64,000 nt of DNA from Flavobacterium agri (GTDB lineage Bacteria > Bacteroidota > Bacteroidia > Flavobacteriales > Flavobacteriaceae). Each line of letters opens with the position of its first letter. The stretch's first letter is position 1. This document shows, piece by piece, positions 20,205-46,531 of the stretch. Below the pieces are notes generated by a model. It was not told the DNA's origin. It did no database searches and worked only from the letters and a program-made list of their open reading frames with translations. The DNA lies in assembly GCF_013401995.1 (NCBI RefSeq), contig NZ_JACBJI010000002.1:62001-126000 (forward strand), written 5' to 3'. The translations under genes were made by a program, and so were the position numbers.

Positions 20205-21176
20205 ATGAAAGACAAAAAATTTACCGACGATCAGGAAATCGATCTTGATGCGTTAAAACAAAAAATGGGTAATGCTCTCGACGGTTTGAACACCAAACTT
20301 TTCAGGATGTTGCAGTTTTTCATCAAAAATATCATCATTATCTCGGTTTTGCTAGTCGTGGGAATCGGGCTTGGTTTTTATCTCGACCGTACGCAAAAGA
20401 CGTACGATCATGAGCTTAAGGTCCAACCCAATTTCGGCAGTGTCGATTACCTGTATGGAAAAATCAATCTGCTCGAGTCAAAAATCGAAAAAGGGGACAC
20501 GGCTTATCTAAAGAATGTCGTGGGGCTCAAATATCCGAAAAAACTGCTCAAGATCGACATCAAACCAATCGTCGACGTTTATCCTTTCGCCAACCAAAGC
20601 GAATACAACTTCGAACTTTTGAAAGTGATGGCCGAAGATGGAAGCATCGACAAAATCATCAAGGAACCGGCAACGTCCAAGAACTATCCGTCGCATATGA
20701 TTTATTTGCGTACGAAAGATATCGCAACCGATGCAACTACAATTCAACCGATACTTAAGTATCTGAATAATAGTGCTTACTATGCGAAACTGCAAGTGGA
20801 ATACCAGAAAAACCTCAAGATCAAGATGGTTGCCAACGATCGCATAATCGCGCAAATCGACGGAATCCTGGACCAACTCGGCTCAAACAATCAAGCTTCG
20901 GGACAGGTGTACATCAACCAGAATACACAACTCAACGACGTCATCGACAGTAAGGACAAACTTGTCCGCGAGCAAGGCGATTTGCGTGTCGCCCAAGTCA
21001 ATTACGACAAAATCGTCAAAGAGCAAAGCCAAGATGTGAATATCGAAAACACCGAGGTCACAAACGGCAAAATGAAACTGTTTTTGCCGATTCTGTTCAT
21101 CGGGCTTTTTGTGCTGGTAAAACTCTTTATCGCCTTCTACAAAAAACAAGCGGCCAAAGAAAAAAAGCAAGCGTAA
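20205..21176 (+). CDS. Wzz-like polysaccharide chain-length regulator
   Basis: 323 residues with the polysaccharide co-polymerase layout: cytoplasmic N-terminus, TM1 (about 37-62), a periplasmic helical domain with coiled-coil character (about 65-285), TM2 (about 288-308) and a Lys-rich tail. Sequence match to classical Wzz is weak, so the call rests on topology and on position directly before rfbA. Likely sets the length of the chain made by the Wzy-type polymerases downstream. Its stop overlaps the rfbA start by one base. Confidence 0.7.
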
Positions 21177-22036
21177 TGAAAGGTATTATTCTCGCCGGAG
21201 GTTCCGGCACCAGGCTCCATCCGCTTACACTTGCCGTAAGCAAGCAACTCATGCCGATTTACGACAAGCCGATGATTTATTATCCGCTTTCGACGTTGAT
21301 TTGGTCGGGAATCCGTGAAATACTGATCATTTCGACACCCCACGATTTACCGTTGTTCCGACAACTTTTGGGCGACGGATCGAAACTGGGCTGCCGATTC
21401 GAATATGCCGTGCAGGAAAACCCGAACGGTTTGGCAGAGGCGTTCATCATCGGCAAGGAATTCATCGGAAGCGACAAAGTAGCCCTGATTCTGGGCGATA
21501 ACATATTTTACGGAACCGGATTGTCGGGCTTGCTGCAATCGAACAACAACCCGGACGGAGGCGTAATTTATGCCTATCACGTGCACGATCCCGAACGATA
21601 CGGCGTCGTCGATTTCGATACGGACGGAAACGTACTTTCGATTGAAGAGAAACCGATCCATCCAAAATCGAACTATGCCGTTCCCGGAATTTATTTCTAC
21701 GACAACGACGTGGTCGACATCGCGGCCAATATCAAACCTTCTCCGCGCGGCGAACTCGAGATTACCGACGTCAACAAAGAATATCTGCAACGCGGCAAGC
21801 TCAAGGTAAGCATACTCGACAGAGGTACGGCCTGGCTTGACACGGGAACGTTCAATTCGCTTATGCAGGCGTCACAATTCGTACAGGTAATCGAGGAAAG
21901 GCAAGGACTCAAAATCGGCTCCATCGAAGAAGCCGCTTTCGAAATGGGCTTCATTACGCCCGATCAATTGAAAGTTTTGGCCGAACCATTACTCAAAAGC
22001 GGCTACGGCACACATTTGATGGGATTAATCGGATAG
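21176..22036 (+). CDS. rfbA: glucose-1-phosphate thymidylyltransferase
   Basis: 286 residues, the normal length. Makes dTDP-glucose from dTTP and glucose 1-phosphate, the entry step to dTDP-deoxysugars. Nucleotide-binding motif GGSGTRLHP (about 8-16), [19 protein letters not shown] (about 104-112) and TAWLDTGTF (about 218-226). Followed after one base by rfbC. The next enzyme of the pathway, rfbB, is missing from the cluster. Confidence 0.97.
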
Positions 22037-22037
22037 C

Positions 22038-22589
22038 ATGAAATTCATACCAACAAAACTCGAAGGTTGTTTCATCCTCGAACCGACTATCATCGGCGAC
22101 GAGCGTGGTTCTTTTATGGAAAGTTTCAACGAAAGGACGTTTGCCCAAGGAACGGGCCAACCGACGCATTTCGTGCAAGACAACCAATCGGTTTCGTCAC
22201 GAGGCGTTTTAAGGGGTTTGCATTACCAGGTTGGGGAATTTGCCCAAGCAAAGCTCGTTCGCGTGCTTAAAGGAGAGGTTTTGGACGTTGCGGTAGACAT
22301 CAGGCCCAAATCGCCCACTTACGGACAACATGTTTCGCTATTGCTGTCGGGCGACAACCAAAAGCAGTTTTTTATCCCGAGAGGTTTCGCTCACGGCTTT
22401 TTGGTCTTGAGCGAATCGGCCGTTTTCTTTTACAAATGCGACAATTTCTATAGCAAGGAATCCGAAGGCGGTATCATTTACAACGATCCGGAACTTGCAA
22501 TCGATTGGAATTTTCCCGAATCGGAAATGACGATCTCTGAAAAAGACACCCATCTTCCTACCTTCAACCAAGCGCGAAAAGTATGGTAG
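22038..22589 (+). CDS. rfbC: dTDP-4-dehydrorhamnose 3,5-epimerase
   Basis: 183 residues, normal length, cupin fold. Epimerises dTDP-4-keto-6-deoxyglucose at C3 and C5. Family motifs: FVQDNQSVSSRGVLRGLHYQ (about 48-67) with the catalytic His, KLVRVLKGEVLDVAVDIR (about 73-90) and PRGFAHGFLVLS (about 116-127). Its end overlaps the rfbD start by seven bases. Confidence 0.97.
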   Translation: MKFIPTKLEGCFILEPTIIGDERGSFMESFNERTFAQGTGQPTHFVQDNQSVSSRGVLRGLHYQVGEFAQAKLVRVLKGEVLDVAVDIRPKSPTYGQHVSLLLSGDNQKQFFIPRGFAHGFLVLSESAVFFYKCDNFYSKESEGGIIYNDPELAIDWNFPESEMTISEKDTHLPTFNQARKVW

Positions 22590-23428
22590 TGCTCGTCACA
22601 GGCGCATCGGGACAATTGGGACAGGCATTGAAATCGGTGCGGTCTTCCTATACGCAAATCGATTTCCATTTTGCCGATTCCTCTCAAGGCGACATTACCG
22701 ACCTTTCAAAAATCCGTTTGCTTTTCGATGAGGTCAAACCTCATTTCTGCATAAACGCGGCGGCTTACACGGCTGTTGATAAGGCGGAAAGCGAGCCCGA
22801 AAAAGCATATGCGATAAACGTGGCCGGAGCGGCGAACCTGGCTTCGGTATGTCTCGAAAAAGACTGTACGCTGATCCATATTTCTACCGATTTTGTTTTC
22901 GACGGCGAATCAAAAATACCGTATTCCGAGGAACAGGAAACCCATCCTACTGGCGTTTACGGCCTCACCAAACGCGACGGAGAATTAGAGATCCAGAAAA
23001 TCCTGCCACGCCATTTTATCGTGCGTACCTCTTGGGTGTATTCCGAATTCGGGCATAATTTCATGAAGACGATGTTGCGACTGGCCAAGGAACGCGATGA
23101 GGTCAATGTGGTCAACGACCAGATCGGCACGCCGACTTACGCGGTCGACTTGGCACATGCCTTGATCCACATTATACTTTCCGAAAAGGCCATTTACGGT
23201 ATTTACAACTTCAGCAACGAAGGCATCGCGAGCTGGTACGATTTCGCAAAGGAGATCTTCTCATTGTCGTCGTCGACCATAAAACTCAACGCGATCCCGA
23301 CTTCGGCTTTCCCGACACCGGCCAAACGGCCATCGTATAGTGTTTTGGATAAATCGCGCATCCGCTCCGTCTTCGGATTACAAATCCGGCCATGGCAACA
23401 AGCGCTTGCCGAAGCGATAAAAAAATAA
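22583..23428 (+). CDS. rfbD: dTDP-4-dehydrorhamnose reductase
   Basis: 281 residues, SDR fold. NADPH-dependent last step to dTDP-L-rhamnose. GASGQLGQ nucleotide loop (about 7-14), STDFVFDG (about 100-107), catalytic Tyr/Lys in YGLTKRDGE and the INAAAYTAVDKAE segment (about 58-70). Last gene of the first sugar operon, ended by a strong terminator. Confidence 0.96.
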   Translation: MVVLVTGASGQLGQALKSVRSSYTQIDFHFADSSQGDITDLSKIRLLFDEVKPHFCINAAAYTAVDKAESEPEKAYAINVAGAANLASVCLEKDCTLIHISTDFVFDGESKIPYSEEQETHPTGVYGLTKRDGELEIQKILPRHFIVRTSWVYSEFGHNFMKTMLRLAKERDEVNVVNDQIGTPTYAVDLAHALIHIILSEKAIYGIYNFSNEGIASWYDFAKEIFSLSSSTIKLNAIPTSAFPTPAKRPSYSVLDKSRIRSVFGLQIRPWQQALAEAIKK

Positions 23429-23433
23429 GACAT

Positions 23434-23463
23434 AAAAAAGGAGAGCAATGCTCTCCTTTTTTT
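23434..23463. terminator. bidirectional terminator between rfbD and the giant CotH gene
   Basis: Perfect palindrome AAAAAAGGAGAGC / GCTCTCCTTTTTT around loop AAT, with T-runs on both strands. Six bases past the rfbD stop; serves both convergent genes. Confidence 0.92.
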
Positions 23464-23477: not shown

Positions 23478-26400
23478 TTATTTGCGAACTATTTTGCGGA
23501 TTCCCGTTTTTCCGTCGCTTTCCACCTGAAGGATGTAAACTCCTTGCGGAAGTTCGCGGAAGCGGATAATCTCGCCTTCCACTTTTCCGGATTGGATCAG
23601 TTTTCCTTCTATGGAATGCAGCATGAAACTGGCGTTTGTGCCGATTCCGTTAACGGTCACGGCGTCTACGAACGGGTTCGGATACACAGAGAACACCAGA
23701 TCGCGAGGATTGCCGACACCAAGTTCCGGCTCGACCGTAATCGTGATTTCGAAAGTCACGCTTCCCGCAGAATTGGTCGCTGTCACGGTATAAGTTGCCG
23801 TGGCCGTCTCTTCGGTTGGCGTTCCAGAAATCTCACCCGTTGCCGGATCGAATGACAATCCCGCAGGAAGTCCAGGCGAAATACTGTATGTGTTCACATT
23901 GCCCGAAACGGTAGGCGAAACGGTTGCAATCGCGGTATTTTGCGTAAACACCAATGGCGTCGGATAACTCAACGCGGAAGGCGCAAGTTCGTTGACCGTA
24001 ATCACGACGTCGAACGTAACGTTTCCTGTAGAGTTCGTCGCCGTCACCGTATATCCGGCAATGGCCGTTACTGCCGTAGGCGTTCCTGAAATCACACCGG
24101 TTGACGCATCAATCGAAAGTCCTGCAGGCAACGATGGAGCGACGGTATATGTGGTCACGCTTCCGGTTACGGTCGGGTTCAAATCAGTAATCGTCTGTCC
24201 GACAGTAAATACGTTTGGAGATGCGTAGCTCAAACCGGATGGAGCCGCTAGGTTGACCGTAATCACCACATCAAAAGTGGTACTTCCTCCAGAATTTGTC
24301 GCCGTGACGGTGTATGACGCTGTTGCGGATGCCGATGTCGGCGTTCCCGAAATCTCACCTGTCGCAGTATCGATAGAAAGTCCGGCAGGCAAAGCAGGCG
24401 AAACCGAATACGAAATCACGTTTCCGGTAACCACAGGCGTCAAAACCGAAATCGCTGATCCGACCGTAAAGATGTTAGGCGACGGATAACTCAAGAAAAT
24501 AGGTGCCGTATCGTTCACGGTGATCACGACTCCAAATGAAGTGCTGCCACCTGAATTGGTCGCAGTAACGGTATATGTTGCCGTAGAAGCGATTGCCGTA
24601 GGCGTTCCAGAGATGATTCCAGTTGTCGTATCGAACGAAAGTCCGACAGGCAAAGCGGGTGAAATGACGTATGAAACCACGCTTCCGGTAACGGTCGGGT
24701 TCAAGGCCGAAATCGTCGAACCAACCGTAAATACGTTTGGCGTGTTGTAACTCAACGCAGACGGCGCTACGGCATTTACGGTGATCACGACTCCAAACGA
24801 AGTGCTGCCGCCCGAATTGGAAGCCGTAACCGTATAAGTGGCCGTGGCCGTAACCATGGTCGGCGTTCCCGAAATGATACCGAATATCGGATCTAAGCTA
24901 AGTCCCGCAGGCAAAGCCGGTGAAACCGAGAAACTCGTCACGAATCCGATGATGGCCGGGAACAAAGGCGTAATGCCCGTTCCGACGGTATACACGTTCG
25001 GAGATGTATAACTCAAAGTTCCAGGAGCGGACGGGTTTACGGTAATCACGACATCAAAAGTGATGCTTCCGCCCGAGTTTGTCGCAGTAACCGTATAAGT
25101 ATTGGTTGCGGATGCCGATGTCGGCGTTCCAGAAATCACACCTGTTGTCGTGTCAAATGAAAGTCCCGTAGGCAAAGCCGGTGAAATGGAATACGAAACT
25201 ACAGTTCCGGTCACGGTCGGTGTCAAAGCCGAAATCGCCGTACCGACGGTAAACGTATTCGGCGAGTTGTAGCTCAAAGCCGAAGGAGCCGCTTGGTTTA
25301 CGATAATCGTCACGTCGAACGTCGTGCTTCCACCCGAATTCGTGGCCGTCACGGTATAAGATGCCGTAGCCGAAACAGCCGTCGGCGTTCCCGAAATCAC
25401 ACCGGTTGTCGTGTCTAAAGACAATCCTGCCGGAAGCGAAGGCGAAACCGAATAAGACGTCACGTTTCCGGTAACCGTCGGATTCAATGCCACTATCGCC
25501 GTTCCTACGGTAAAAACGTTCGGCGTGTTGTAACTCAAAGCCGATGGCGCTATGTCGTTCACGGTGATGACCACTCCAAACGAAGTGCTTCCACCAGAGT
25601 TCGTGGCCGTCACGGTATAAGTCGCCGTAGCCGAAACAGCCGTCGGCGTTCCCGAAATGATACCTGTTGTAGGATTTATAGACAATCCGGAAGGCAATGT
25701 CGGAGAAACGCTAAACGAAACCACGTTTCCGGTAACGGTTGGCGTAAGGTCTGTAATGGCTTGACCAACGGTAAAGATGTTCGGCGAAGCATAACTCAAG
25801 GCTGTAGGCGCCACATCGTTTACGGTAATCACGACACCAAAAGTAGAACTGCCGCTCAAATTCGTGGCCGTTACCGTATATGTTGCCGTTGCCGTAACCG
25901 TCGTCGGTGTTCCAGAAATGATCCCGAAAGTAGGATCCAAAGTAAGTCCGGCAGGCAAAGCAGGCGAAACCGAGAAGCTCGTCACAAAGCCGATAATGGC
26001 CGGGAACAAAGGCGAAATCGCCGTACCGACGGTATACACGTTAGGCGACGGATAACTCAACGAACCCGGTGCAGGCATGTTGACGGTAATCACCACATCG
26101 AACGTAGTGCTTCCGCCGGCGTTTGTAGCCGTCACGGTATACGTCGTCGTAGCGGAAGCGACAAAAGGCGTTCCCGAAATCACACCCGTCGTCGTATTGA
26201 AAGTCAACCCCGAAGGAAGTCCTGGCGTAATCGAATAAGACGTCACGGTTCCGGTCACGGTAGGCAATAGCGGTGCAATACCGATTCCGACCGTATAAAC
26301 GTTCGGCGTGTTATAGCTGAGGTTAGACGGAGCCGCAGGATTTACGGTGATCGCCACGCCAAAAGAAACGTTTCCGCTTTCGTTAGTGGCCGTTACGGTG

Positions 26401-29400
26401 TATGTCGCTGTGGCGGAAACCACAGTCGGTGTACCCGAAATCACACCTGTGGTCGTGTCCAAAGAAAGTCCCGCAGGCAAAGCGGGCGAAACGCTGTACG
26501 AATCGACGCTTCCCGTCACGGTAGGGTTCAAAGCGGTAATCACAGAACCTACTGTGAAAACGTTCGGCGTATTGTAACTCAATGCAGACGGAGCTACATC
26601 GTTAACCGTAATGCTGACATCGAAAGTCGTGTTTCCTCCTGAATTGGTTGCCGTCACGGTATAAATTGCCGTAGCCGAAACGACTGTAGGTGTACCTGAA
26701 ATTACACCTGTGGTCGTATCTAAAGAAAGTCCTGCAGGAAGAGTCGGAGCAATTGAATACGAAATCACGTTTCCGGTCACCGTCGGATTCAAGGCAGAAA
26801 TTGCCGTTCCGACAGTAAACACGTTTGGCGTAGTATAACTCAATGCAGAAGGCGCGATGTCGTTGACCGTAATGCTGATGTCGAAAGTCGTATTTCCACC
26901 CGAATTCGTAGCCGTTACGGTATAAGTCGCTGTGGCGGAAATGGCAGTCGGCGTACCCGAAATCACACCCGTTGCCGTGTTGAACGACAATCCGGTCGGA
27001 AGTGAAGGCGAAATCGCATAAGACGTCACGTTTCCGGTCACCGTCGGATTCAAAGCAGAAATTGCTGTTCCGACAGTAAATACGTTCGGCGTGTTATAGC
27101 TCAATGCAGACGGCGCGATGTCGTTCACTGTAATGCTAATATCGAACGAAGTGCTTCCGCCAGAATTCGATGCAGTCACGGTATAAAGCGCCGTAGCGGT
27201 AACGGTTGTCGGCGTACCCGAAATCGATCCGGTCGTATTATCGATCGAAAGGCCATCGGGCAAATCGGGCGAAACCGAATAGAACATCACGTTTCCGGTA
27301 ACGGTCGGGTTCAAAGCGGTAATGGCCGAACCGACGGTAAATACATTCGGAGTCGGATAGCTGAGGTTGGCCGGCACTTGATCAAGCACAGCAATCAACA
27401 AATCGAAAGTCGTGCTGCCGCTTGTGTTCGTGGCCGTTATGGTATACAAAGTCGTAGACGAAGAAACAGTCGGCGTTCCTGAAATCACACCCGTTGTCGT
27501 GTCGAAAGAAAGTCCGGCAGGCAAAGTTTGGGAAATGCTGTACGAATCCACGTTTCCGCTTACGGTCGGATTCAAATCGGAAATCAAAGTACCGACGGTG
27601 AACACATTCGGTGTGTTGTAACTCAAACCTGACGGAGTCGCCTCGTTGACCGCAATGCTGATGTCGAAAGTCACGCTTCCGCCAGAATTGGTAGCGGTCA
27701 CGGTATAAGTCGTCGCGGCCGAAATAGCAGTCGGCGTACCCGAAATCACACCTGTCGTCGTATCGAAAGAAAATCCGGCAGGCAATGTTGAAGAAATGCT
27801 GTACGAATCCACGCTTCCGGTCACGGTCGGATTCAAATCGGAAATCGCAGTGCCGACGGTGAACACATTCGGCGTGTTGTAACTCAAAGCCGACGGAGCG
27901 ACATCGTTAACGGTAATCGTGATATCGAACATGATGCTTCCGTTCGGATTGGTCGCCGTAATCGTATAAACTGCAGTAGGCGTCGCAACAGTAGGCGAGC
28001 CGTAAATTACCCCTGCATTCGGCGCAATCGATAAACCGGCAGGAAGTGCAGGCGAAACAGTAAAGTTGGCCGTCGTGCCCGCGTCGTTCGCAGTCGGTTC
28101 GATATAAACGGAAGATTGGCCTACGGAAAGGACTACTGGCGTATCGTAGCTCAATGTGGTCGGTGCCGGATCTTCTACGGTAACCACCCAACCGAACGTG
28201 GTGCTTCCGCCAGCATTCGTGGCCGTTACCGTATAGGTTGTGGTCGGTGTCGCCACAACCGGCGTTCCGACGATCTGGCCGTTGTTCGGGTCATAGAAAA
28301 GCCCCAAAGGCAAATCGTTGAAGCTGTATGAAGTCACGCTTCCGGTCACGGTCGGCATCAATGGCGTGATCGTCGTTCCCGTGTAGAACGTGATCGGGCT
28401 CGGATAGCTCAAGTCTGACGGAGCAGCCGGATTCACGGTAATCACCACATCGAAAGTCGTACTTCCGCCCGCATTTGTAGCGGTAACGGTATAGGTCGTC
28501 GTCGGAGAAACCCCGGTCGGCGTTCCCGAAATCACGCCCGTAGTCGTATCGAAAGACAAACCTGACGGAAGCGTTCCCGAAATGCTGAAACTCGTCGCGG
28601 TCGCGGTCGTCGCCGGAGTCAAAGGCGTAATCGGCGTTCCCACGACAAACGTGTTCGGGCTTGGGTAGGTAAGCGGCATTTTCACCGCATCCATCGCGAT
28701 ATTGTTGAACGTGACGCGAGCGCCCGTATCGGCCGTCATATTCGGGCCTGTAAAACGCAAACGGACTTTGAAATTGGCGTTGTCGTTCGCGGCCGTAATT
28801 GCCGAGAAATCGGTTTCGAACAGTTGATATGTTCCCGTCGTCAGCGCCAAGGCAGAAGTAATTCCCGTCGTGATCCAAGTCGGAGCGCCCGCATTCGTGG
28901 CGTAGTCGATTGCGATGCCCGTTGCGGCACCTTCGTCCATTGCGGCAAAAGAGAACTTGATTTCCTTGTAGCCTGTCGTCGGAAGGTTGAACACCATCGT
29001 ATTTTCCAATCCGTTGTTCTGGAACGGTTGCGTAATCTGTAAACCGCGCATAATGCCCGGCGCATAAGCGACGTTGCTGTTGGTTTCCGGACGATAGTTG
29101 ATCGGCGTCGGCATGTTGCGTCTTTCCATCGAGCCGTGTCTCCAAAGCGGATTCGCCGACGTGAACGGATAACCCGCAAGCGAAGACGAATAACTGATAG
29201 TCGTGTTCGGCAAAACTTCGTAAGACGAATTCAAAGACGTAAGCGGCGTATCGTTCGGGATGGCCGTGTTCATCATCCAGAAATACACGGGAACACTTTG
29301 CTCTACAGCGAATCCTTCAGGAACGAAAACCGCGGTCGCGTTGAAATTGGCCGCAGAAGTCACGGTGATTTCGGCAGTAGTCGCCGTAGAAACGCCCGTC

Positions 29401-31766
29401 CAATGGCTGAAAACATAACCCGGTTTTGCGATCGCCGTAAGCTTTACCGGAATGTTCGAGAAATAAATGCCGCTCCAAGGGAAAGGAGTAGCCGAAACGC
29501 CAGGCAAGCCCGGTTGCAGTTCCAAAGTATTGATTTTGATATAGCCGTGGTCGTTGTCCGACACGTTCAAAGTCGCCGTGATATTATTCGCGATGCTGAA
29601 TTTGTTGCGGATGTGGTTGCGCTGAAAAGCCGGACGCTGGTTCGCGAAATCCGTCTCATAATTCATGTACCAGTCGAAATCGCCCATGTCGAACGCGCTC
29701 CAACGTTGCGTATGCGCCGGAAGTTCAGCGAAAATCCCGTCCTTCATCGCGTTGAGTTTCGCAATGACGTTCGCAGGCAGATAGTGACTGTTCATCATGT
29801 CCGCGAAACGGTTGATGAAATAGTTCTTGAAACCTTCGTTCTGCAACATTCTTCTGAGCCAAAGCGTCGACCAATCGGGATTTACAGGACCGATCGAAGT
29901 CGCGATCTGCAAATTGTTGTGGTTGTAATCGTCCGTTCCGAAAGAGAACGTGTCGTCCATATCGTGGAAAACCCAACGGAAACGTCCGTCTGCACCATAA
30001 TCGGCCGTCGGTTCGTACTGGCTCGTGCGCTTTCTCCAGAATTGCTGGTTGTTTCCGGGCCAATCCGAATTGTCGAAAAAGATATTCGCGATGTAATAAT
30101 CGGCGAAACTTTCGGGATCGAGCTGTGTGACCACATGGTCGTAATCGGCTTGGTTCGAAAGGTTGTGGCCTTGCATGTAAGCGGTGACTTCGTCGTATTT
30201 GTCGTCGTCTCCTTCTTCGGCATCTCCGTCGTTTTCAATCAGATCCACATCGTCAAAACCGTAAACCTGCTTGAAATAATTGTTGTCGTATTTCTCGCGC
30301 AGGTTCATGATTCCCCAATATTCACCGTCTACGAAAACGATCGTCGGCTGGTAATTTTCGTTTTCGCAATGTTGCTCTTTACAGATGTTTTGTACAAGCG
30401 CGTCGCGGAACATCGTATTGCGGAAATCGTTGCCTGAAGTCGAAAGCGTCAAACGCTCGTAACTCTGGTAAGGCAAATTCGAGAAGAACTGGTAATCCAT
30501 GTCGTCGTCTCCGTATTCGCCTCGCGCATAAATATTGAGCGATTTGTTCTCGTATTTTCTCGTCGAACCGCCTCGGATACGGATTCCGACGTCTTGCGTC
30601 AAAACCTGTGTTCCATTCACATAATAGCTCAGGTTCGCGCGGCGCTCGGTTTCCTCTCCGCTTCTGTAATAATTCCCGACGCGAAGGCTTCCTGGATGAA
30701 CGCCAGGATTCGCGGCTCTCCAATCGTCGAAATCAACTCCGGCGACGAACATACCGTCGTTGTAGTCGTAGAAAATCGATTCGGTAAACGAAAGCGAAAC
30801 AACCGGAATGCTGAATTTACTCGCGCCCTGAGGTGTCACGAAATACGTCTGGGAAATCGTCGGACTGGCCAAAGCACCCGGTTTGACCACTTTTGCGCGA
30901 ACGACAGTGCCTTTGAAAAGCGGATTGTCCGGAATGTAAAACGACGGATCGAAGTGATACGTCGAAGAAATCGCCGCCAATTTATTCGGTTGAGGCGTTC
31001 GGTCCACGATATTGATCGGCGTGTTGTAGGTCAGCGTCTCATAAGAATTCGTCAACAACGGCCCCGGGGTTTGGAAGCCCGATTCATTGTACGAATTGCG
31101 ATACGTGTATGTCTGTCCGCCGATGTTGGCTTCGCTGGGTTCAGAACCGTCGAGCGTATACAAAATAGTGGCTCCGGGATCGGTAGTGGAAAGCGTAAGG
31201 TTGAATGCCGCGGTAGAAAACCCGCCTTGTTGAGAGAAAACAGGAGCGCTCAAAAGGCCGGTGTAAGCGACAGCCGCGTTTTGTGCGTTCGGCGTCACGT
31301 CGTCGAAAAAAAGAAAAGGTCCTGTTCCGTTAGGAAAGCGACCCAATGAGAAATTTTGTTGTATGACGGTAGCCGGAACCTGATCGACGGTCACGCTCGC
31401 AGCATTGGTAAGCACGATGTTTTCGCCCGAAGAGCTGATCTTCCAATTCGTATGCAACGGTTGTCCGACGACGGTGCGGTTCTTGTCTGAACAGTAAATC
31501 AGCAAATACTGGCCCGAGTTTACTGTAACATTGGGAAATACCCATTTGAACGGTTGGGTCGGATCGTCCGTAAGCCCATATCCGTTGAGGTTTACAGCGC
31601 CAGGACCGTTGTTGAAAAGTTCCACCCAATCCTGGTATTCTCCGTCTTCGTCTACATTCAAGGATGTGTTTGAAGTCACGATTTCATTGATGACGATCTG
31701 GGATTTGGCTTGGGTACAAAAAGCAAAAAACGCCAATAAAATCAGCGCAGGGGTAATTTTTTTCAT
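23478..31766 (-). CDS. giant T9SS-exported CotH/lamin-tail protein with 19 Ig-like repeats
   Basis: 2762 residues. Signal peptide (1-23), lamin-tail domain (about 24-135, INEIVTSNTS..YQDWVELFN), chitobiase C-terminal-like region (about 185-215, LYTLDGSEP), CotH kinase-like domain (about 320-690) with the Asp motif HDMDD near 600, an InlB-B-like divergent repeat (about 755-810), then from about 1030 to 2684 nineteen tandem putative-Ig (He_PIG-like) repeats of about 87 residues (consensus LSYxTPNVFTVG..GVISGTPT..YTVTATN). It ends in a T9SS type A sorting domain (VYPNPF..GVYILQVES..KIVRK). Spore-coat CotH is a protein kinase; whether this one is active is unknown. Opposite strand to the sugar operons. 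Confidence 0.92.
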   Translation of the reverse strand: MKKITPALILLAFFAFCTQAKSQIVINEIVTSNTSLNVDEDGEYQDWVELFNNGPGAVNLNGYGLTDDPTQPFKWVFPNVTVNSGQYLLIYCSDKNRTVVGQPLHTNWKISSSGENIVLTNAASVTVDQVPATVIQQNFSLGRFPNGTGPFLFFDDVTPNAQNAAVAYTGLLSAPVFSQQGGFSTAAFNLTLSTTDPGATILYTLDGSEPSEANIGGQTYTYRNSYNESGFQTPGPLLTNSYETLTYNTPINIVDRTPQPNKLAAISSTYHFDPSFYIPDNPLFKGTVVRAKVVKPGALASPTISQTYFVTPQGASKFSIPVVSLSFTESIFYDYNDGMFVAGVDFDDWRAANPGVHPGSLRVGNYYRSGEETERRANLSYYVNGTQVLTQDVGIRIRGGSTRKYENKSLNIYARGEYGDDDMDYQFFSNLPYQSYERLTLSTSGNDFRNTMFRDALVQNICKEQHCENENYQPTIVFVDGEYWGIMNLREKYDNNYFKQVYGFDDVDLIENDGDAEEGDDDKYDEVTAYMQGHNLSNQADYDHVVTQLDPESFADYYIANIFFDNSDWPGNNQQFWRKRTSQYEPTADYGADGRFRWVFHDMDDTFSFGTDDYNHNNLQIATSIGPVNPDWSTLWLRRMLQNEGFKNYFINRFADMMNSHYLPANVIAKLNAMKDGIFAELPAHTQRWSAFDMGDFDWYMNYETDFANQRPAFQRNHIRNKFSIANNITATLNVSDNDHGYIKINTLELQPGLPGVSATPFPWSGIYFSNIPVKLTAIAKPGYVFSHWTGVSTATTAEITVTSAANFNATAVFVPEGFAVEQSVPVYFWMMNTAIPNDTPLTSLNSSYEVLPNTTISYSSSLAGYPFTSANPLWRHGSMERRNMPTPINYRPETNSNVAYAPGIMRGLQITQPFQNNGLENTMVFNLPTTGYKEIKFSFAAMDEGAATGIAIDYATNAGAPTWITTGITSALALTTGTYQLFETDFSAITAANDNANFKVRLRFTGPNMTADTGARVTFNNIAMDAVKMPLTYPSPNTFVVGTPITPLTPATTATATSFSISGTLPSGLSFDTTTGVISGTPTGVSPTTTYTVTATNAGGSTTFDVVITVNPAAPSDLSYPSPITFYTGTTITPLMPTVTGSVTSYSFNDLPLGLFYDPNNGQIVGTPVVATPTTTYTVTATNAGGSTTFGWVVTVEDPAPTTLSYDTPVVLSVGQSSVYIEPTANDAGTTANFTVSPALPAGLSIAPNAGVIYGSPTVATPTAVYTITATNPNGSIMFDITITVNDVAPSALSYNTPNVFTVGTAISDLNPTVTGSVDSYSISSTLPAGFSFDTTTGVISGTPTAISAATTYTVTATNSGGSVTFDISIAVNEATPSGLSYNTPNVFTVGTLISDLNPTVSGNVDSYSISQTLPAGLSFDTTTGVISGTPTVSSSTTLYTITATNTSGSTTFDLLIAVLDQVPANLSYPTPNVFTVGSAITALNPTVTGNVMFYSVSPDLPDGLSIDNTTGSISGTPTTVTATALYTVTASNSGGSTSFDISITVNDIAPSALSYNTPNVFTVGTAISALNPTVTGNVTSYAISPSLPTGLSFNTATGVISGTPTAISATATYTVTATNSGGNTTFDISITVNDIAPSALSYTTPNVFTVGTAISALNPTVTGNVISYSIAPTLPAGLSLDTTTGVISGTPTVVSATAIYTVTATNSGGNTTFDVSITVNDVAPSALSYNTPNVFTVGSVITALNPTVTGSVDSYSVSPALPAGLSLDTTTGVISGTPTVVSATATYTVTATNESGNVSFGVAITVNPAAPSNLSYNTPNVYTVGIGIAPLLPTVTGTVTSYSITPGLPSGLTFNTTTGVISGTPFVASATTTYTVTATNAGGSTTFDVVITVNMPAPGSLSYPSPNVYTVGTAISPLFPAIIGFVTSFSVSPALPAGLTLDPTFGIISGTPTTVTATATYTVTATNLSGSSTFGVVITVNDVAPTALSYASPNIFTVGQAITDLTPTVTGNVVSFSVSPTLPSGLSINPTTGIISGTPTAVSATATYTVTATNSGGSTSFGVVITVNDIAPSALSYNTPNVFTVGTAIVALNPTVTGNVTSYSVSPSLPAGLSLDTTTGVISGTPTAVSATASYTVTATNSGGSTTFDVTIIVNQAAPSALSYNSPNTFTVGTAISALTPTVTGTVVSYSISPALPTGLSFDTTTGVISGTPTSASATNTYTVTATNSGGSITFDVVITVNPSAPGTLSYTSPNVYTVGTGITPLFPAIIGFVTSFSVSPALPAGLSLDPIFGIISGTPTMVTATATYTVTASNSGGSTSFGVVITVNAVAPSALSYNTPNVFTVGSTISALNPTVTGSVVSYVISPALPVGLSFDTTTGIISGTPTAIASTATYTVTATNSGGSTSFGVVITVNDTAPIFLSYPSPNIFTVGSAISVLTPVVTGNVISYSVSPALPAGLSIDTATGEISGTPTSASATASYTVTATNSGGSTTFDVVITVNLAAPSGLSYASPNVFTVGQTITDLNPTVTGSVTTYTVAPSLPAGLSIDASTGVISGTPTAVTAIAGYTVTATNSTGNVTFDVVITVNELAPSALSYPTPLVFTQNTAIATVSPTVSGNVNTYSISPGLPAGLSFDPATGEISGTPTEETATATYTVTATNSAGSVTFEITITVEPELGVGNPRDLVFSVYPNPFVDAVTVNGIGTNASFMLHSIEGKLIQSGKVEGEIIRFRELPQGVYILQVESDGKTGIRKIVRK
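23745..28675 (-). repeat. array of 19 tandem Ig-like coding repeats (about 260 bp each)
   Basis: DNA-level tandem repeat inside the giant CotH gene. Units range from near-identical protein (for example units 7 and 8) to diverged (units 2, 3 and 19 at the edges). Units 11 and 15 share the unusual FPAIIGFVTSFSVSPALPAG, which points to duplication of a four-unit block. Confidence 0.9.
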
Positions 31767-31785: not shown

Positions 31786-31793
31786 CAAATATA
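31786..31793 (-). promoter_or_regulatory. -7 element for the giant CotH gene
   Basis: Minus-strand TATATTTG, 19 bases upstream of the ATG; no TTG at -33 spacing. Confidence 0.5.
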
Positions 31794-31931: not shown

Positions 31932-34900
31932 TTATTGCTTGGCGATTTTCTTGGTTTCGGTCCTTCCGTCAGACTCGAGTTGCAACAAGTACAATCCTGA
32001 AGTCAATCCGTCGAGGCTGATCTGGTTCGAAGCGTCGATTTTGCCTTTCTTGACCAGTTTCCCATCGATTGCGAACAACGAATACATTGCGTCAGCTCCC
32101 AAATTCGCGACGTTCACGATACCGCTTGTAGGGTTCGGATACACGAGGAATCTGTTTTCTACGGGAACCGAAGGTACAGAAAGCAGCGACGTTCCGTGAA
32201 CCGCGATATTGTTGAACGTGATGCGGTTTCCGGCATCGACGGTCATGTCGCCGGTTCCCGTGAAACGCACGCGGATCTTGAAGTTCGCATTGTTGTCGGC
32301 AGCCGTGATCGAAGAGAAATCGACGTTGAACAAAGCGAAATCGGATGTCAACGGATACACCGAAGAAGCCAATCCCGCGGTCGTCCAGCTAGGTGTTCCT
32401 GCAACCGTAGAATAATCGATTACGATATTCTGTGCGTTGGTCAATTCGTTTTTCGCGGCGAAAGAGAATTTGATGTCCTCGTAACCCACGGTCGTGAAAG
32501 CGAACACCATGATGTTCTCGTTTCCGGCGTTCTGCAACGGCTCCTTGATTTGGATGCCGCGCATTGCACTGGCCAGGTAAGCCGCACCACCGTTGGCCTC
32601 CGGAATGTAGTTGATCGAAGTCGGGCTGTTTCTTCTTTCCATAGACGCGTGCTGGAACAACGGATCGCCCGAAGTATACGGATAACCTGGCAAGCACGAT
32701 GTATATTGGATTACCGCGTCGGTAGCCGGAACTTCGAACGAAGAGTTCAAAGACGTAAGCGGCGTATCGTTCGGGATCGATGTTCCCATGTACCAGAAAT
32801 AGATCGGCTCGCTCGAATTCGTGTTTGTCGGTACGAAAACGGCTTTTACAGAAAATGCGGCCGACATCGTAAGCGTGATCTCATCAGTAGTCGCAATAGA
32901 AGCGCCTTCCCAGTGGTCGAATACGAAACCGTCGTTCGCGATCGCTTTCAAGGTCACCGGAATGCCCGAGAAGTAAACGCCAGTCCAAGGATATGGATTC
33001 GCGGCGATGTTGTCGGTTCCGAGTTTGATGTCGATCGTATTCATCTTGATGTAACCGTGGCTCACGTCCGAAACGTCCAGCGTCGCGTTGATGTTCGAAG
33101 CGATCGTGAATTTCGAGCGGATGTGGTTTCTCTGGAAAGCCGGACGTTGCGTCGCGAAATCCTGTTGGTATCCGTAATAGTAGTTGAAATCGTTGATGTC
33201 TACCGGAGCTGTCCAGCGATCCATTTGCTCGTTGAGTTCGGGCATGATCACGGCTTTCATCTCGTCCATCGTCGAATTCACGAAAGCGGTAGAATACGAC
33301 GTGTTGATCTTATCGGCAAAACGGTTGATGAAATAGTTTTTAAAACCGGGATTCTCAAGCATTTTTCTCAAAAGGAATGTACTCCAGGCCGGGTTTGGCC
33401 ACTCAGGTCCGTTGGTTGCGGTAGCGGCGGCAAGAGCGTTGTGGTTGATGTTTTCGTTGTTGGTAGAGAACGTCGCGTCCATGTCGTGGGCGAGCCATCT
33501 CCAACGTCCGTCGTGCGGATACTCGGCATTCGGTGCGTCGACTTTTTCTCTCCAGAAAACGATGTTGTTGCCCGGCCAGTCGATGTTGTCGAAGTAAATG
33601 TTGTGGATGAAATAATCGGCGAAGTTCTGGTAATCCAACTGCGTCAAGATATAATCGTAGTTGGCTTGTACCGATAGCGGATGCGTCTCGATATAATCGA
33701 TCATCGCATTGTAATCGTCGTCGTCGCCTTCTTCGATCTGCGCCTCGCTTTCAAGAACGTCCACGTCATCGATGTCGAAAACGCGCTTGAAGTAATTGTT
33801 GTCGAACTTGTCGCTCAAAGAAAGGATTCCCCAATATTCGCCGTTCATGAACGTGATTGTCGGCTGGTAACCTTTCGTGAGCACGTGCGATTGTTTCAAA
33901 AGACGCATGTTGAGCGCATCGCGGAACAAGGTCTCGTAAAAATCGGCTCCGGAATTGCGCAAGATCAAACGCTCGAAATCGGTAGGTTGGTTCGGGAAGA
34001 AACCGTAATCCATGGTCTCGTCTCCGTATTCGGCACGCGAATAAATGTTGAACGACTTGTTCTGCCAATCGCGCGATGAACCGCCGTGCAAACGAAGCCC
34101 TACGTTTTGGTTGATGACTTCCGTTCCGTTCACGAAATAGCTCATGTTGGCCTCGCGTTCGTATTGTTCGCCGCGACGGTAATAGTTTCCTAAATCTTCT
34201 TGTCCTTCCGGTTCAAGATCCGGGTTGTCGATTCTCCATTGGTCGAAATCGACGCCGGGTACATAAATTCCGTCGTTGTAATCGAAAAGTACATTCTCGC
34301 TGATGCTCAACGAAACGACCGGCAAAGAAAAACGGCTGCTTCCCAAAGGCGTCACGAAATATGACTGCGAAGTGGTCTTGCTCGAAAGCGCTCCGGCTTT
34401 GACAACCTTGGCGCGAACGACCGTGCCTTTGAAAATGTTGTTGTCCGGTAAATAAAACGGATCGAAATACGTGGTCGAGATCATCGAGATGTCGTTGGGT
34501 TGAGACGTGCGATCCACGATGCTGATCGGTCCCGAATACGTCAAGCTGTTGAAGCTTTTGGTCAAAAACGGCCCTTCCGGATCACCCGGATGCCAAGGAT
34601 ATTGGTTTTTGTATTGGTACGTCGTTCCGGCGAGGTTGGCCGGATCGGGTTCGCTTCCGTCGAGCGTATAAATGATCGTTGCTCCAGGCGTCGTCGTCGA
34701 AAGCGTGAGGTTGAAGGCCGAGGTGAAAAATCCTCCGTTCTGTGAAAATGCAGGCGGATTCAGGATTTCGTTATATCCGACCGCACCGTTTTGCGCAGCT
34801 GGCGTCACGGCACTGAAGAATACGAAAGGCCCGCTTCCGTTTGGCAATCTTCCGAAAGAAATGTCCGAAGGAATCGCCGTTGCCGGAACCTGGTCGACCA

Positions 34901-35276
34901 TAACGCTGGCCGCATTTGTCAAGGTAATCGCTTCGCCCGCAGAACTGATTTTCCAGTTCGTGTGAAGCGGTTCATTGACGACCGTGCGGTTTTTGTCGGA
35001 ACAATAAATGATCAGATATTGGCCGGGCCCGATGATCTGGGCCGGGAAAACCCATTTGAAAGGTTGGGTAGCGTCGTCGGTAAGGCCGTAACCGTTGAGG
35101 TTGATGGCCGCCGCCGTGCCGTTGTAAAGCTCGACCCAGTCTTGATAATCGCCGTCCTCATCGACGTTTGTCAAGGTGTTCGAGGTCAAGATTTCATTGA
35201 TTACCAGGTTTTGGGCAAAAGTCGATGCACCCAATAAAAGGAACAGACCAATGAAAAATGGGGTAATTTTTTTCAT
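31932..35276 (-). CDS. T9SS-exported CotH/lamin-tail protein (short paralogue)
   Basis: 1114 residues from ATG 35276; upstream in-frame codons precede a clear signal peptide (MKKITPFFIGLFLLLGASTFAQ). Same order as the giant neighbour: lamin-tail, chitobiase-like (LYTLDGSEP/IYTLDGSEP equivalent), CotH kinase-like domain with HDMDA near 597, InlB-like repeat, and a C-terminal T9SS type A domain (VYPNPTSG..GLYLLQLES). It lacks the Ig-like array. The two proteins align throughout the first 1000 residues, so they arose by tandem duplication. Predicted cell surface or secreted. Confidence 0.9.
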   Translation of the reverse strand: MKKITPFFIGLFLLLGASTFAQNLVINEILTSNTLTNVDEDGDYQDWVELYNGTAAAINLNGYGLTDDATQPFKWVFPAQIIGPGQYLIIYCSDKNRTVVNEPLHTNWKISSAGEAITLTNAASVMVDQVPATAIPSDISFGRLPNGSGPFVFFSAVTPAAQNGAVGYNEILNPPAFSQNGGFFTSAFNLTLSTTTPGATIIYTLDGSEPDPANLAGTTYQYKNQYPWHPGDPEGPFLTKSFNSLTYSGPISIVDRTSQPNDISMISTTYFDPFYLPDNNIFKGTVVRAKVVKAGALSSKTTSQSYFVTPLGSSRFSLPVVSLSISENVLFDYNDGIYVPGVDFDQWRIDNPDLEPEGQEDLGNYYRRGEQYEREANMSYFVNGTEVINQNVGLRLHGGSSRDWQNKSFNIYSRAEYGDETMDYGFFPNQPTDFERLILRNSGADFYETLFRDALNMRLLKQSHVLTKGYQPTITFMNGEYWGILSLSDKFDNNYFKRVFDIDDVDVLESEAQIEEGDDDDYNAMIDYIETHPLSVQANYDYILTQLDYQNFADYFIHNIYFDNIDWPGNNIVFWREKVDAPNAEYPHDGRWRWLAHDMDATFSTNNENINHNALAAATATNGPEWPNPAWSTFLLRKMLENPGFKNYFINRFADKINTSYSTAFVNSTMDEMKAVIMPELNEQMDRWTAPVDINDFNYYYGYQQDFATQRPAFQRNHIRSKFTIASNINATLDVSDVSHGYIKMNTIDIKLGTDNIAANPYPWTGVYFSGIPVTLKAIANDGFVFDHWEGASIATTDEITLTMSAAFSVKAVFVPTNTNSSEPIYFWYMGTSIPNDTPLTSLNSSFEVPATDAVIQYTSCLPGYPYTSGDPLFQHASMERRNSPTSINYIPEANGGAAYLASAMRGIQIKEPLQNAGNENIMVFAFTTVGYEDIKFSFAAKNELTNAQNIVIDYSTVAGTPSWTTAGLASSVYPLTSDFALFNVDFSSITAADNNANFKIRVRFTGTGDMTVDAGNRITFNNIAVHGTSLLSVPSVPVENRFLVYPNPTSGIVNVANLGADAMYSLFAIDGKLVKKGKIDASNQISLDGLTSGLYLLQLESDGRTETKKIAKQ

Positions 35277-35560: not shown

Positions 35561-36667
35561 ATGAAGAAATTAGCGATTATTGGAGCCAGTTACCTACAAC
35601 TTCCTTTGGTTTTGAAAGCCTCGGAAATGGGCATCCAAACGCATTGTTTTGCCTGGCCCGAGGGTGCTGTTTGTAAAGGCAAGGCCGATTTTTTCTATCC
35701 AATCTCGGTTTTGGAAAAAGAACAGATACTCGAACAATGTCTCGAAATAGGTATAGACGGTATCTGTACGATCGCCAGCGACATGCCGGTACCGACCATT
35801 TCGTTCGTAGGAGAGAAAATGGGACTTTGCGTAAACAGCCAAAAAAGTGCATGGTTGTCTACCGATAAGGAAGCGATGCGCCAGGCGTTCGACGGAAAAG
35901 TTCAAATTCCGAAATTCTATAAAGTACAAGCTCCGTCCGATTATCGTGACGCGTTGGATTTTCCGATAATCGTCAAACCTACCGACCGTTCCGGAAGCCG
36001 TGGCGTGACCAAACTCACCAATGACGAAGGACTGGACCAGGCCATTGCTTATGCCATATCCGAATCTTTTTCGAAACAAGCCATAATAGAGGAATTCATA
36101 TCGGGTCGCGAAGTAAGCGTCGAAAGCGTTTCCTGGCAAGGCAAGCACCGCATTCTGGCAATCACCGACAAGATTACCACCGGAGCGCCGCATTTCGTAG
36201 AGTTGGCGCATCACGAACCGTCTAGTTTTCCGTCGTCGATACTTGAGAAAATCGAGGCTGAAACCTTAAAAGCGCTCGACGCCCTCGAAATAGCATACGG
36301 TGCGGCGCATTCCGAGTTCAAGATCACCGAAAACGGCAAAGTATATGCTATTGAAGTTGGTGCTCGTATGGGCGGCGATTTTATAGGTTCGCATCTGGTT
36401 CAACTTTCTACGGGTTACGATTACGTTAAAGGTGTCGTCGAGATCGCGCTTGGGGAATTCCACGAACCTCAATTCCGCGACCGCGCGTATTCCGGTGTAT
36501 ATTTCCTTAGCGAGGAAACACGTAATTTGATTCCTTATTTTGAACGTCCGAACGCATTCGAGGTCGAAAAAGCCGTACAAAACCAAGAACTCAAAAACCT
36601 AAAAAGTAGTAACGACAGGTCTGGATATTTAATTTATCAAGCTGCAGAGCGAATAGAATTGCCATGA
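35561..36667 (+). CDS. ATP-grasp ligase of the polysaccharide cluster
   Basis: 368 residues. N-terminal Rossmann-like part (KKLAIIGASYLQLPLVLKA) and an ATP-grasp core: PIIVKPTDRSGSRGV (about 131-145), EEFISGREVSVES (about 179-191), and VYAIEVGARMGGDF (about 261-274) with the metal-binding Glu and Arg. Related to carbamoyl-phosphate synthase/PurK-like ligases found in glycan clusters; joins a carboxylate to an amine or other nucleophile using ATP. Context with a transaminase and acyltransferase suggests it adds an amino or acyl group to an amino sugar (inference). Overlaps the GT2 gene by four bases. Confidence 0.85.
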   Translation: MKKLAIIGASYLQLPLVLKASEMGIQTHCFAWPEGAVCKGKADFFYPISVLEKEQILEQCLEIGIDGICTIASDMPVPTISFVGEKMGLCVNSQKSAWLSTDKEAMRQAFDGKVQIPKFYKVQAPSDYRDALDFPIIVKPTDRSGSRGVTKLTNDEGLDQAIAYAISESFSKQAIIEEFISGREVSVESVSWQGKHRILAITDKITTGAPHFVELAHHEPSSFPSSILEKIEAETLKALDALEIAYGAAHSEFKITENGKVYAIEVGARMGGDFIGSHLVQLSTGYDYVKGVVEIALGEFHEPQFRDRAYSGVYFLSEETRNLIPYFERPNAFEVEKAVQNQELKNLKSSNDRSGYLIYQAAERIELP

Positions 36668-37590
36668 AATTATCGGTTGTTTCCACATTATACAGGTCAA
36701 GACGTTTTCTGGAATCATTTCTGGACCAAATGCTCGCGGCCATAAACGAGACAAGTTTTGAAGAGTACGAACTCGTTTTTGTGAACGACGGATCGCCAGA
36801 CGACTCGCTGGATTATCTGTTGGAGCGCAAAAAAGACTGGCCGCAGATAAAACTGCTCGACCTTTCACGCAATTTCGGTCATCATTATGCGATTCAGGCC
36901 GGGCTTTCGTACGCTTCGGGCGATTATGTTTTTTTGATTGACAACGATTTGGAAACCCCGCCTTCGGTTTTGGTCGAGTATTACGGGGAATTTCGTGCCA
37001 ATCCTGAGCTCGACGTGGTTTACGGATATCAGGAAACACGCAAGGGAGGATTTCTCGAGAAATTCTCGGGTAATTTGTTTTGGAACATGATCAATAAAAT
37101 GTCGGACACCAAAATCCCGCACAACATCCTTACCGAACGGCTCATGACACGCCAATACGTAGAAGAGCTGCTCAAGCTGCGCGATGCCAATGTATTCATA
37201 GGCGGTATGATGCACTGGGTAGGTTTCGATCAAAAAGGCGTGCCGGTAAAAAAAGGACAACGTGAAGGCGCGAGTACGTATTCAATCGGGCGAAGGCTCG
37301 AGCTAATGTTGCAGGCCGTGACTTCGTTTTCGGGAAAACCGCTTGAATGGTTGTTTTACATCGGATTGCTGATTTCTGTCGGAAGCATTTTGTTTTTGCT
37401 CTACCTGGGCGGAAAAAAAATAATGTACGGCGATGAAGTACAGTTGGGTTGGACCTCTATTATCGCCATTAATGTATTGATGCTCGGTGTGATTTCGACT
37501 TTTTTGGGGATTATCGGCATTTACATCTACAAGATTTTCAAGCAAGTACAAGGCAGGCCAAACACGATAGTCAAAAAAATATATGAGTAA
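36664..37590 (+). CDS. glycosyltransferase family 2, membrane anchored
   Basis: 308 residues. GT-A fold N-terminus with VNDGSPDDS (about 37-45) and IDNDLETPP (about 93-101) as the DxD region, RNFGHHYAIQAG (about 68-79), then two C-terminal membrane helices (about 228-250 and 262-290). This is the DPM1/GtrB/ArnC type that often uses a polyprenyl phosphate as acceptor. Overlaps the next gene by eight bases. Confidence 0.9.
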   Translation: MKLSVVSTLYRSRRFLESFLDQMLAAINETSFEEYELVFVNDGSPDDSLDYLLERKKDWPQIKLLDLSRNFGHHYAIQAGLSYASGDYVFLIDNDLETPPSVLVEYYGEFRANPELDVVYGYQETRKGGFLEKFSGNLFWNMINKMSDTKIPHNILTERLMTRQYVEELLKLRDANVFIGGMMHWVGFDQKGVPVKKGQREGASTYSIGRRLELMLQAVTSFSGKPLEWLFYIGLLISVGSILFLLYLGGKKIMYGDEVQLGWTSIIAINVLMLGVISTFLGIIGIYIYKIFKQVQGRPNTIVKKIYE

Positions 37591-38215
37591 GATATTGGGC
37601 ATCATCGGATCAGGACATTTGGGCCAGCAATTGGCGCATTTCGCGCTTTCAGGAAAACAGTATGACAAGGTGGTTTTTTTCGACGACCTCACATCCGAAA
37701 CCCATCGCAACAGCAATGAAATTCTTGGCAAGACCGATCAGATCGCCAACTGTTTCGCACAAGGAGCGTTCCATGAGTTGCTCATCGGCATCGGCTACAA
37801 CCATATGCAGGCGCGCCGTGATTTTTATGAGCGTTTTTACGCCGAAATCCCGTTTGGCAAACTCATCCATGCCACGAGTTGGGTAGATCCGACGGCAACG
37901 ATCGCGCCCGGAAGTGTGCTGTATCCGGGCTGCTGCATAGACGCGAACGTCAAAATTGCCGAAAATGCGCTACTCAACCTCAATTGTACTGTTTCTCACG
38001 ATTGTTCGGTAGGCGCACATTCGTTCTTGGCGCCGCGTGTCGCGTTGGCCGGATTCGTCTCTGTAGGCGACGGTTGTTTTTTGGGCATCAATACGACGGT
38101 AAAAGATAATATTTCGATAAATTCGGGCACGTCTTCGGGCGCTTGTACCCTTTTTGTGAAAGACACGCCTGAAAGCGGACTTTACATTGGGCAACCCGCA
38201 AAAAAAATAGCATAA
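37583..38215 (+). CDS. PglD/NeuD-type sugar O/N-acyltransferase
   Basis: 210 residues. N-terminal nucleotide-sugar-binding fold (IIGSGHLGQQLA) and a C-terminal left-handed beta-helix with hexapeptide repeats (about 100-195; IAPGSVLYPGC, VKIAENALLN). The catalytic His is likely in TVSHDCSVGAH (about 133-143). PglD-family enzymes N-acetylate UDP-4-amino sugars; next to the WecE-type transaminase, an N-acyl-4-amino-4,6-dideoxyhexose is the likely product. One-base overlap with the transaminase gene. Confidence 0.88.
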   Translation: MSKILGIIGSGHLGQQLAHFALSGKQYDKVVFFDDLTSETHRNSNEILGKTDQIANCFAQGAFHELLIGIGYNHMQARRDFYERFYAEIPFGKLIHATSWVDPTATIAPGSVLYPGCCIDANVKIAENALLNLNCTVSHDCSVGAHSFLAPRVALAGFVSVGDGCFLGINTTVKDNISINSGTSSGACTLFVKDTPESGLYIGQPAKKIA

Positions 38216-39348: not shown

Positions 39349-39429
39349 TTTTGCGGCCGAACTTGTATAGTGCCTGAAAACGCAAAACACAGCCTTTTAC
39401 CAACCAGATAAAACAACAATCAGTATCCG

Positions 39430-41286: not shown

Positions 41287-41315
41287 TGCCTGCCGTTTTA
41301 ATTTGGACATAATTA

Positions 41316-41347
41316 TTGTAAAAGAAATTCGAATTTTTCTAATTTTG
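41316..41347 (+). promoter_or_regulatory. promoter for the lipoprotein gene (TTG-N21-TAATTTTG)
   Basis: -33 TTG at 41316-41318, spacer 21, -7 TAATTTTG at 41340-41347, 19 bases before the ATG. One of the few in the window with both elements at normal spacing; implies independent expression within the glycan locus. Confidence 0.7.
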
Positions 41348-41366
41348 CACATCATAAGATAAAAAC

Positions 41367-41909: not shown

Positions 41910-41931
41910 TGCTTTTTTGACCAACGTTCAA

Positions 41932-41972
41932 CCGGCCTGGCAATTACTCTTAACAGGGAATTTCCAGGCCGG
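41932..41972. repeat. inverted repeat after the lipoprotein gene, possible terminator
   Basis: Perfect 9-bp arms CCGGCCTGG (41932-41940) and CCAGGCCGG (41964-41972) with a 23-base loop that contains AATT twice, followed by ATCGTTTT. GC-rich stem with a weak T-tract; a terminator is likely but the large loop is unusual. Confidence 0.55.
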
Positions 41973-42034
41973 ATCGTTTTACACGTCTCCGCTTGGTGCA
42001 AAAAAGAGCCGACTTGTACGTCTAATCATTACGC

Positions 42035-45694: not shown

Positions 45695-45703
45695 AGCACG
45701 GCG

Positions 45704-46480: not shown

Positions 46481-46502
46481 ATTCTGAAGTAACTGATTTA
46501 GG

Positions 46503-46531
46503 CAAAAGTAGCAATTAATAGCCAACGCAAA
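46503..46531 (-). promoter_or_regulatory. promoter of the oxygenase-GT4 operon (TTTG-N17-TACTTTTG)
   Basis: On the minus strand, TTTG (46531-46528), spacer 17, TACTTTTG (46510-46503), 22 bases before the ATG at 46480. Both elements match the Bacteroidota primary-sigma consensus. Confidence 0.75.

Follow-up and report, generated by a model that had tools for sequence, protein, structure and literature searches.

A tandem pair of CotH-domain proteins with T9SS type A tails, one bearing an Ig-like array of variable length, beside the rml genes of Flavobacterium agri

Why should a giant CotH-domain protein be encoded in the middle of a surface-polysaccharide locus? The question is raised by a window of 64,000 nucleotides of the Flavobacterium agri genome, in which a preliminary description had recognised a 2762-residue, T9SS-exported CotH protein with 19 Ig-like repeats and had proposed that its anchoring or modification depends on the adjoining glycan, possibly within a kinase-adhesin system. 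The ORF, hmmscan and TIGR04183 agree on the protein itself. Its proposed dependence on the glycan finds no support in the comparisons below. For the reading that we put in its place we see roughly even chances: the gene would belong to an old tandem pair of T9SS type A cargo with active-like CotH heads, one of them on a variable stalk, and the place of the pair would be mainly inherited.

The giant protein (P0001; 23478..31766, minus strand) has an ATG start and no internal stops in the ORF read-out, and hmmscan matches all the modules claimed for it in the claimed order, except that the part called chitobiase-like is Fn3_assoc here. A signal peptide at about residues 1-22 (31701..31766), judged by eye from the translation and not by a predictor, is followed by a lamin tail domain (LTD) at residues 19-130 (31377..31712; PF00932, 1.7e-15), the Fn3_assoc module at residues 190-308 (30843..31199; PF13287, 4.9e-6) and the CotH domain at residues 395-713 (29628..30584; PF08757, 1.4e-36). 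The latter scores 127 bits against a cut-off of 23.8 and covers profile positions 1-320 of 322. An InlB-like repeat, Flg_new_2, occupies residues 771-816 (29319..29456; PF18998, 1.4e-5), and residues 820-1030 (28677..29309), for which the Pfam search gave no match, are probably beta-rich, as strands in a low-confidence model and conservation in relatives suggest. Then come the 19 Ig-like (He_PIG) repeats of about 87 residues each (23712..28673; 19 stretches, 6e-178), whose starts lie 86-89 residues apart, and finally a T9SS type A sorting tail at residues 2694-2762 (23481..23687), recognised both by PF18962 (Por_Secre_tail, residues 2694-2760, 7.2e-8) and by TIGR04183 (residues 2694-2762, above cut-off). 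All of these features read on the minus strand.

Both ends of the giant gene carry short candidate signals. Between rmlD and the giant gene, an inverted repeat with A and T runs on its flanks (23434..23463, found by eye) is a possible terminator common to the two genes. At the other end, 27 bases 5' of the ATG, the sequence TATATTTG (31786..31793, minus strand) is a possible promoter element of the TAnnTTTG type. Elements of this type also occur at -27 or -28 in G681 and in F. selenitireducens and at -73 in G561; none was found within 160 bases 5' of the downstream copies in G103, G009 and G158.

The giant gene does not stand by itself: it forms a same-strand tandem pair, in which it lies downstream and whose upstream member (31932..35276, minus strand; ORF and domains), absent from the preliminary description, encodes 1114 residues from its likely start. 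This upstream paralogue consists of the modules of the giant protein minus the Ig array, with 59% identity over the common part, and its PF08757 score is 143.4 bits. A CHB_HEX_C_1 match is found only here, the equivalent part of the giant protein being the Fn3_assoc module. The source genome (3.98 Mb) holds three further CotH genes elsewhere.

The surroundings of the pair are a surface-polysaccharide locus, as had been claimed. On one side rmlA, rmlC and rmlD (21176..23428, plus strand; domain matches) are convergent with the pair; on the other (35561..51389; domain matches) lie glycan genes for ATP-grasp, GT2, PglD-like, DegT, PMT_2, Wzx-like, further GT, Wzy_C-like, epimerase and Bac_transf proteins. 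The Wzx-like gene is a Polysacc_synt match, and the Wzy_C match, at 29.3 bits, lies below its cut-off of 31.7. We note that the gene at 20205-21176 is a member of the rml block that is kept in relatives, and that its resemblance to a chain-length regulator is by eye only; the label "Wzz-like" was dropped after Pfam and NCBIfam gave no match near any cut-off.

We asked how often the pair, or either member, is found at this place. Relatives at E <= 1e-80 occur in at least 49 of 398 Flavobacterium genomes, and, in a family-wide sample of 299 genomes from 236 genera that includes the source, in at least 2 of the 298 others, at 38 and 35% identity; at most two candidates were scored per genome, so that both counts are lower bounds and extra copies are missed. 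Given this rarity outside the genus, the subfamily seems almost confined to Flavobacterium. A copy in the rml block is present in 29 of the 49 positive genomes, which bears out the expected co-occurrence with polysaccharide loci. In 18 of these 29 placements, the source genome included, CotH directly follows rmlD on one contig; ten are inferred over contig ends, from a contig ending in an Ig array and another with rmlD and a C-terminal piece; and in F. caeni (G611) the pair lies between DUF6909 and GH3, still within the block. For positives that at first had no rml copy, the listed rml loci were inspected, which gave three more copies (G683, G497, G637); in G099 a second RmlC place lies outside the inspected loci, the RmlC matches listed being a partial set. 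Where inspected rml loci have no CotH gene, rmlD mostly has glycan or unclassified genes directly after it (for example in L083-L087 and L124-L127).

The subfamily is not found only with the glycan locus. A second home lies beside gcvP, where nine genomes (L088-L095, L068) carry the pair or a single copy; the gcvP gene is PF02347 in the one tested, and the nine are 82-100% identical. Three of these nine genomes also have an rml copy, and the rml locus of the other six shows none. Eleven further positives have matches only elsewhere than rml or gcvP, and three (G034, G148, G671) were assigned to no placement class. Nor are the members always found together: 23 of 79 relatives are the sole copy found at their place, and in many genomes one member only was seen. 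At the rml junction of G546 (L112) there are three tandem CotH genes, all without Ig repeats.

How the pair came to its place was examined with a quick, midpoint-rooted tree of 79 proteins with SH-aLRT support only, entered by matches above 900 residues and 500 bits; the 744-residue divergent matches of G099, G579, G588 and G680 count among the 49 positives and lie outside this tree. A single supported clade holds 16 of the 19 rml upstream copies, and two further clades hold 20 of the 21 rml downstream ones. Since the two kinds of copy sit in separate clades, the duplication behind the pair appears to predate these species. There are exceptions: the G009-type genomes have an additional upstream lineage, and in G150, G497, G683 and G637 the sole rml copy clusters with copies from the gcvP home and with others. 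Between genomes, the distance of the upstream copies increases with that of the downstream copies (r = 0.87, 19 genomes). CotH distances in turn track a core set made up of the GH3-like, DUF6909 and RmlA proteins, with Mantel r of 0.66 (22 genomes), 0.59 (19, without the G009 group) and 0.73 (17 downstream copies), at 0 of 2000 permutations each. As these core genes lie inside the same block, the Mantel tests speak for the block and not for the whole genome. In four comparisons dN is 0.11-0.20 and dS is above 1, which is saturated, indicating that selection on the pair genes is purifying.

These results bear on the simplest account of the location, namely that it has no function: the pair would have arrived at the junction in some ancestor and since been kept or lost with it. 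We lean somewhat towards this account, which speaks to position alone and can hold alongside the old-pair reading given at the outset. On a core-gene tree of 49 genomes, 27 of them with an rml copy, presence changes 9 times against a shuffled mean of 16.2, a clustering to be read with G510 and G480 left out of the tree and with genomes lacking an rml copy picked by hand and not at random. The gcvP home is equally conserved, and the F. caeni pair has another position in the same block. The tracking of block core genes by CotH distances likewise suggests inherited synteny rather than functional coupling. However, at least six of the presence changes are forced by well-supported branches, so that the pair must have been lost or gained repeatedly at the same spot, and the four single copies outside the main rml clades mean that more than one CotH lineage has occupied it. 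Inherited synteny is thus the best reading of the location, and some functional tie to the O-antigen is possible.

What distinguishes the downstream member is its array. Ig repeats occur in 23 of the 79 proteins, all downstream members (the G148 copy is taken as one of them since a fragment lies upstream of it), and in none of 27 upstream members. The order of head, Ig array and T9SS tail suggests that the array is a stalk. Its length varies: the eight complete Ig-bearing genes have 2, 3, 6, 7, 8, 16, 18 and 19 repeats, the other 15 of the 23 being cut by contig ends. Since 7 of 29 downstream members have no Ig repeats at all, the stalk is not essential to the pair. In G561 (L117, 9447-17483), the closest match of repeats 2-9 within the protein is at 92-98%; this points to recent growth of that array and is the ground on which we take arrays to grow by tandem duplication. 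The array of the source genome, with best pairs at 85%, looks older; with, in addition, no repeated 45-mer and a single repeated 35-mer, its recent amplification was rejected. On the gcvP side, the three complete Ig-bearing copies have 3, 6 and 7 repeats.

Array O-glycosylation was considered as well. The Bacteroidota O-glycosylation motif is D(S/T)(A/I/L/V/M/T), and it is not enriched in the arrays, where observed against shuffled counts are 10 and 8.8 for the source, 9 and 7.3 for G561 and 2 and 3.5 for G681; this candidate was rejected. The heads of the same three proteins do not contain the motif, for which shuffles give about 3.8-4.1.

The nature of the head rests on its active site, which we aligned through a profile of 14 relatives to B. 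cereus CotH (5jd9; E 5.8e-5). The giant protein's NSDWPGNN aligns with NFDGFVHN and its HDMD with WDYD, which places a catalytic loop N566-x-D568-x4-N573 at 30048..30071 and a metal-binding Asp, D602, at 29961..29963 (both minus strand). In B. subtilis CotH, D228 and D251 mutants are inactive, according to the available part of PMC7821199. The Asp-Asp spacing in 5jd9, counted by hand, is 23, as from D228 to D251; D568 therefore corresponds to D228, N573 to the Asn that follows it and D602, the first Asp of the HDMDD named in the preliminary description, to D251. Among the 79 relatives D568 is kept in 75, N573 in 75 and D602 in all. The four relatives that depart from this (G082, G110, G692 and G700; L079, L078, L096 and L098) have Ser or Gly for the catalytic Asp, a gap at the Asn and the metal Asp kept, and are candidate pseudokinases; they form the deepest branch of the midpoint-rooted tree. 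Neither outcome that would have spoken against the preliminary description, lost catalytic residues or no recurrence at glycan loci, was found outright.

The nucleotide pocket differs. CotH holds adenine between Tyr142 and Trp245, as described in the accessible text of PMC12189002, and Trp245 falls directly before the metal Asp by a hand count along the 5jd9 chain. At this position the giant protein has His 601, where B. cereus CotH has Trp, and the 79 relatives have H (52), K (19), Q (4), N (3) and R (1), and never W; a Trp is present in two of the source genome's other three CotH proteins. At the Tyr142 equivalent, 72 of 79 have Y or F, in a stretch where the alignment is uncertain. By this alignment the catalytic core is kept and the Trp part of the adenine pocket is changed. 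With the pocket unlike that of B. cereus CotH, the kinase proposed earlier is only putative for the giant protein: its catalytic Asp, Asn and metal Asp stand, and its nucleotide site does not follow the known pattern. The mean pLDDT of two AlphaFold models, from 10- and 11-row alignments, is low at 45.6 and 49.7, and a PDB fold search with the second model gives 5jda as best match, at E 0.011 and TM 0.48.

Could the head then be a non-catalytic binding domain and the Ig array a classical adhesin stalk? Such a pure adhesin strikes us as rather unlikely, though it has points in its favour. The adenine-stacking Trp is missing throughout, the four deepest-branch relatives have lost the catalytic Asp and Asn, and the best PDB sequence match of the whole giant protein, 4m03 (2.4e-6), is a serine-rich adhesin for platelets matched on the Ig array. 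Furthermore, Rhizopus CotH3 binds GRP78 (cited in PMC9973265, from the text of it at hand). Against this, the Asp and Asn of nearly all relatives and the metal Asp of all are retained despite a mean divergence of about 40% among the rml copies compared. With the Asp/Asn/Asp set kept, the head is more likely to work as a phosphotransferase, or to bind in a nucleotide-dependent way, than to be a dead fold, although its pocket has changed.

We turn to secretion and to the proposal that anchoring or modification depends on the glycan, as in an A-LPS-like, dedicated kinase-adhesin-glycan system. The giant protein has the marks of T9SS type A cargo in its TIGR04183 tail above cut-off and its signal peptide, seen by eye; PorU is encoded in the source genome (NF033707, 1383 bits against 420), and its presence, like the recurrence of the rml placement in 29 of 49 positives, fits such a system. 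So does a control by eye, in which none of 59 CotH matches shorter than 1,100 residues lies within 15 kb of RmlC among the RmlC matches listed, a result in which contig ends and unlisted RmlC matches could mask cases. However, type A tails are common across the genome, with 102 matches on many contigs, 100 of them above cut-off and two belonging to the pair. Whether a type A cargo of F. johnsoniae is statically anchored or released depends on its tail (PMC12618676, in the part available). With some 100 such tails, PorU and tail-dependent fates, the adjacency of glycan genes says nothing special about anchoring. Moreover, the glycan genes adjoining the pair often differ among species that keep it (G103 has several in common with the window), CotH divergence tracks that of the core genes, and the gcvP-side and other placements described above lie away from the rml block. 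Because the genes have a home at gcvP and type A cargo is so widely spread, we reject glycan dependence as the main reading and regard it as improbable.

On the old-pair reading, the two proteins may act as follows: (I) both members would display the same head at the surface, made up of LTD, Fn3-like, CotH and InlB-like modules and a beta-rich region, on the cell or released from it; (II) the head of the downstream member would be carried outward by the Ig stalk, as the domain order suggests, and the length of this stalk would change among species by tandem duplication, the eight complete copies ranging from 2 to 19 repeats; (III) the heads would use their LTD, Fn3-like and beta-rich modules to bind a target on a surface or in the matrix, to which they may also pass on a group carried by a nucleotide; and (IV) the genes would stay at the junction of a conserved rml block and exchangeable glycan genes mainly through inheritance. 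Several points count against this reading: the stacking Trp is absent from all 79 relatives, both structure models are of low confidence, and ATP should be scarce outside the cell. An Ig domain spans about 4 nm, so that 19 repeats could reach about 75 nm. A far bolder version, which we hold to be very improbable, would place one head near the membrane, inside the O-antigen layer or beneath it, and a diverged head beyond that layer on a repeat-tuned stalk. Through a modified nucleotide pocket, both would transfer phosphate or another group carried by a nucleotide, either to the glycan of the cell itself or to surfaces nearby; if true, this would account for the persistence of the pair next to O-antigen genes while the glycan type changes.

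Several parts of this system are known individually, as far as the available portions of the sources go: CotH, LTD with CotH (Cthe_0239, PMC6083626), He_PIG arrays and type A tails. The Bacillus CotH spore-coat kinase (PF08757; 5jd9, 5jda) shares with the giant protein a full-length CotH domain and the active-site residues D228, D251 and the Asn at +5 from D228; it has Trp245 (PMC12189002, in part) where the giant protein has His, and the giant protein adds the T9SS tail and the LTD, Fn3-like, InlB-like and Ig modules. Clostridium thermocellum Cthe_0239, arranged as LTD-LTD-Fn3-CotH, likewise carries lamin tail and Fn3-type modules before CotH; it is cellulosomal and thus not T9SS cargo, and neither an Ig array nor a tandem pair is described in the available part of PMC6083626. 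F. johnsoniae RemA and AmyB are likewise type A cargo, corresponding to TIGR04183 and PorU in the source genome, but their heads are a lectin or an amylase where that of the giant protein is CotH (PMC12618676, available part). Rhizopus and Mucor have paralogous CotH families with signal peptides, some of them involved in host binding, according to the accessible text of PMC9973265. Those proteins are fungal, whereas the pair here is bacterial. To our knowledge, fungal CotH proteins have no T9SS tail, by lineage.

A search of the open-licence literature found no study of a secreted Bacteroidota CotH protein and no report of the tandem pair, the downstream-only Ig arrays, the two homes or the Trp loss. 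The pair amounts to a natural experiment, in which old paralogues with and without a stalk keep their active-site residues and have a changed pocket, often at a fixed place adjoining exchangeable surface-glycan genes. If active, the heads would represent a kinase-like enzyme that a bacterium exposes on the outer side of its outer membrane.

Finally, the glycan side of the window contains, at 41367-41909, a 180-residue gene product that looks lipoprotein-like by eye. Pfam and NCBIfam families were not found for it; the gene recurs in 25 of 97 loci longer than 8 kb, at 24-42% identity and, where inspected, among glycan genes.
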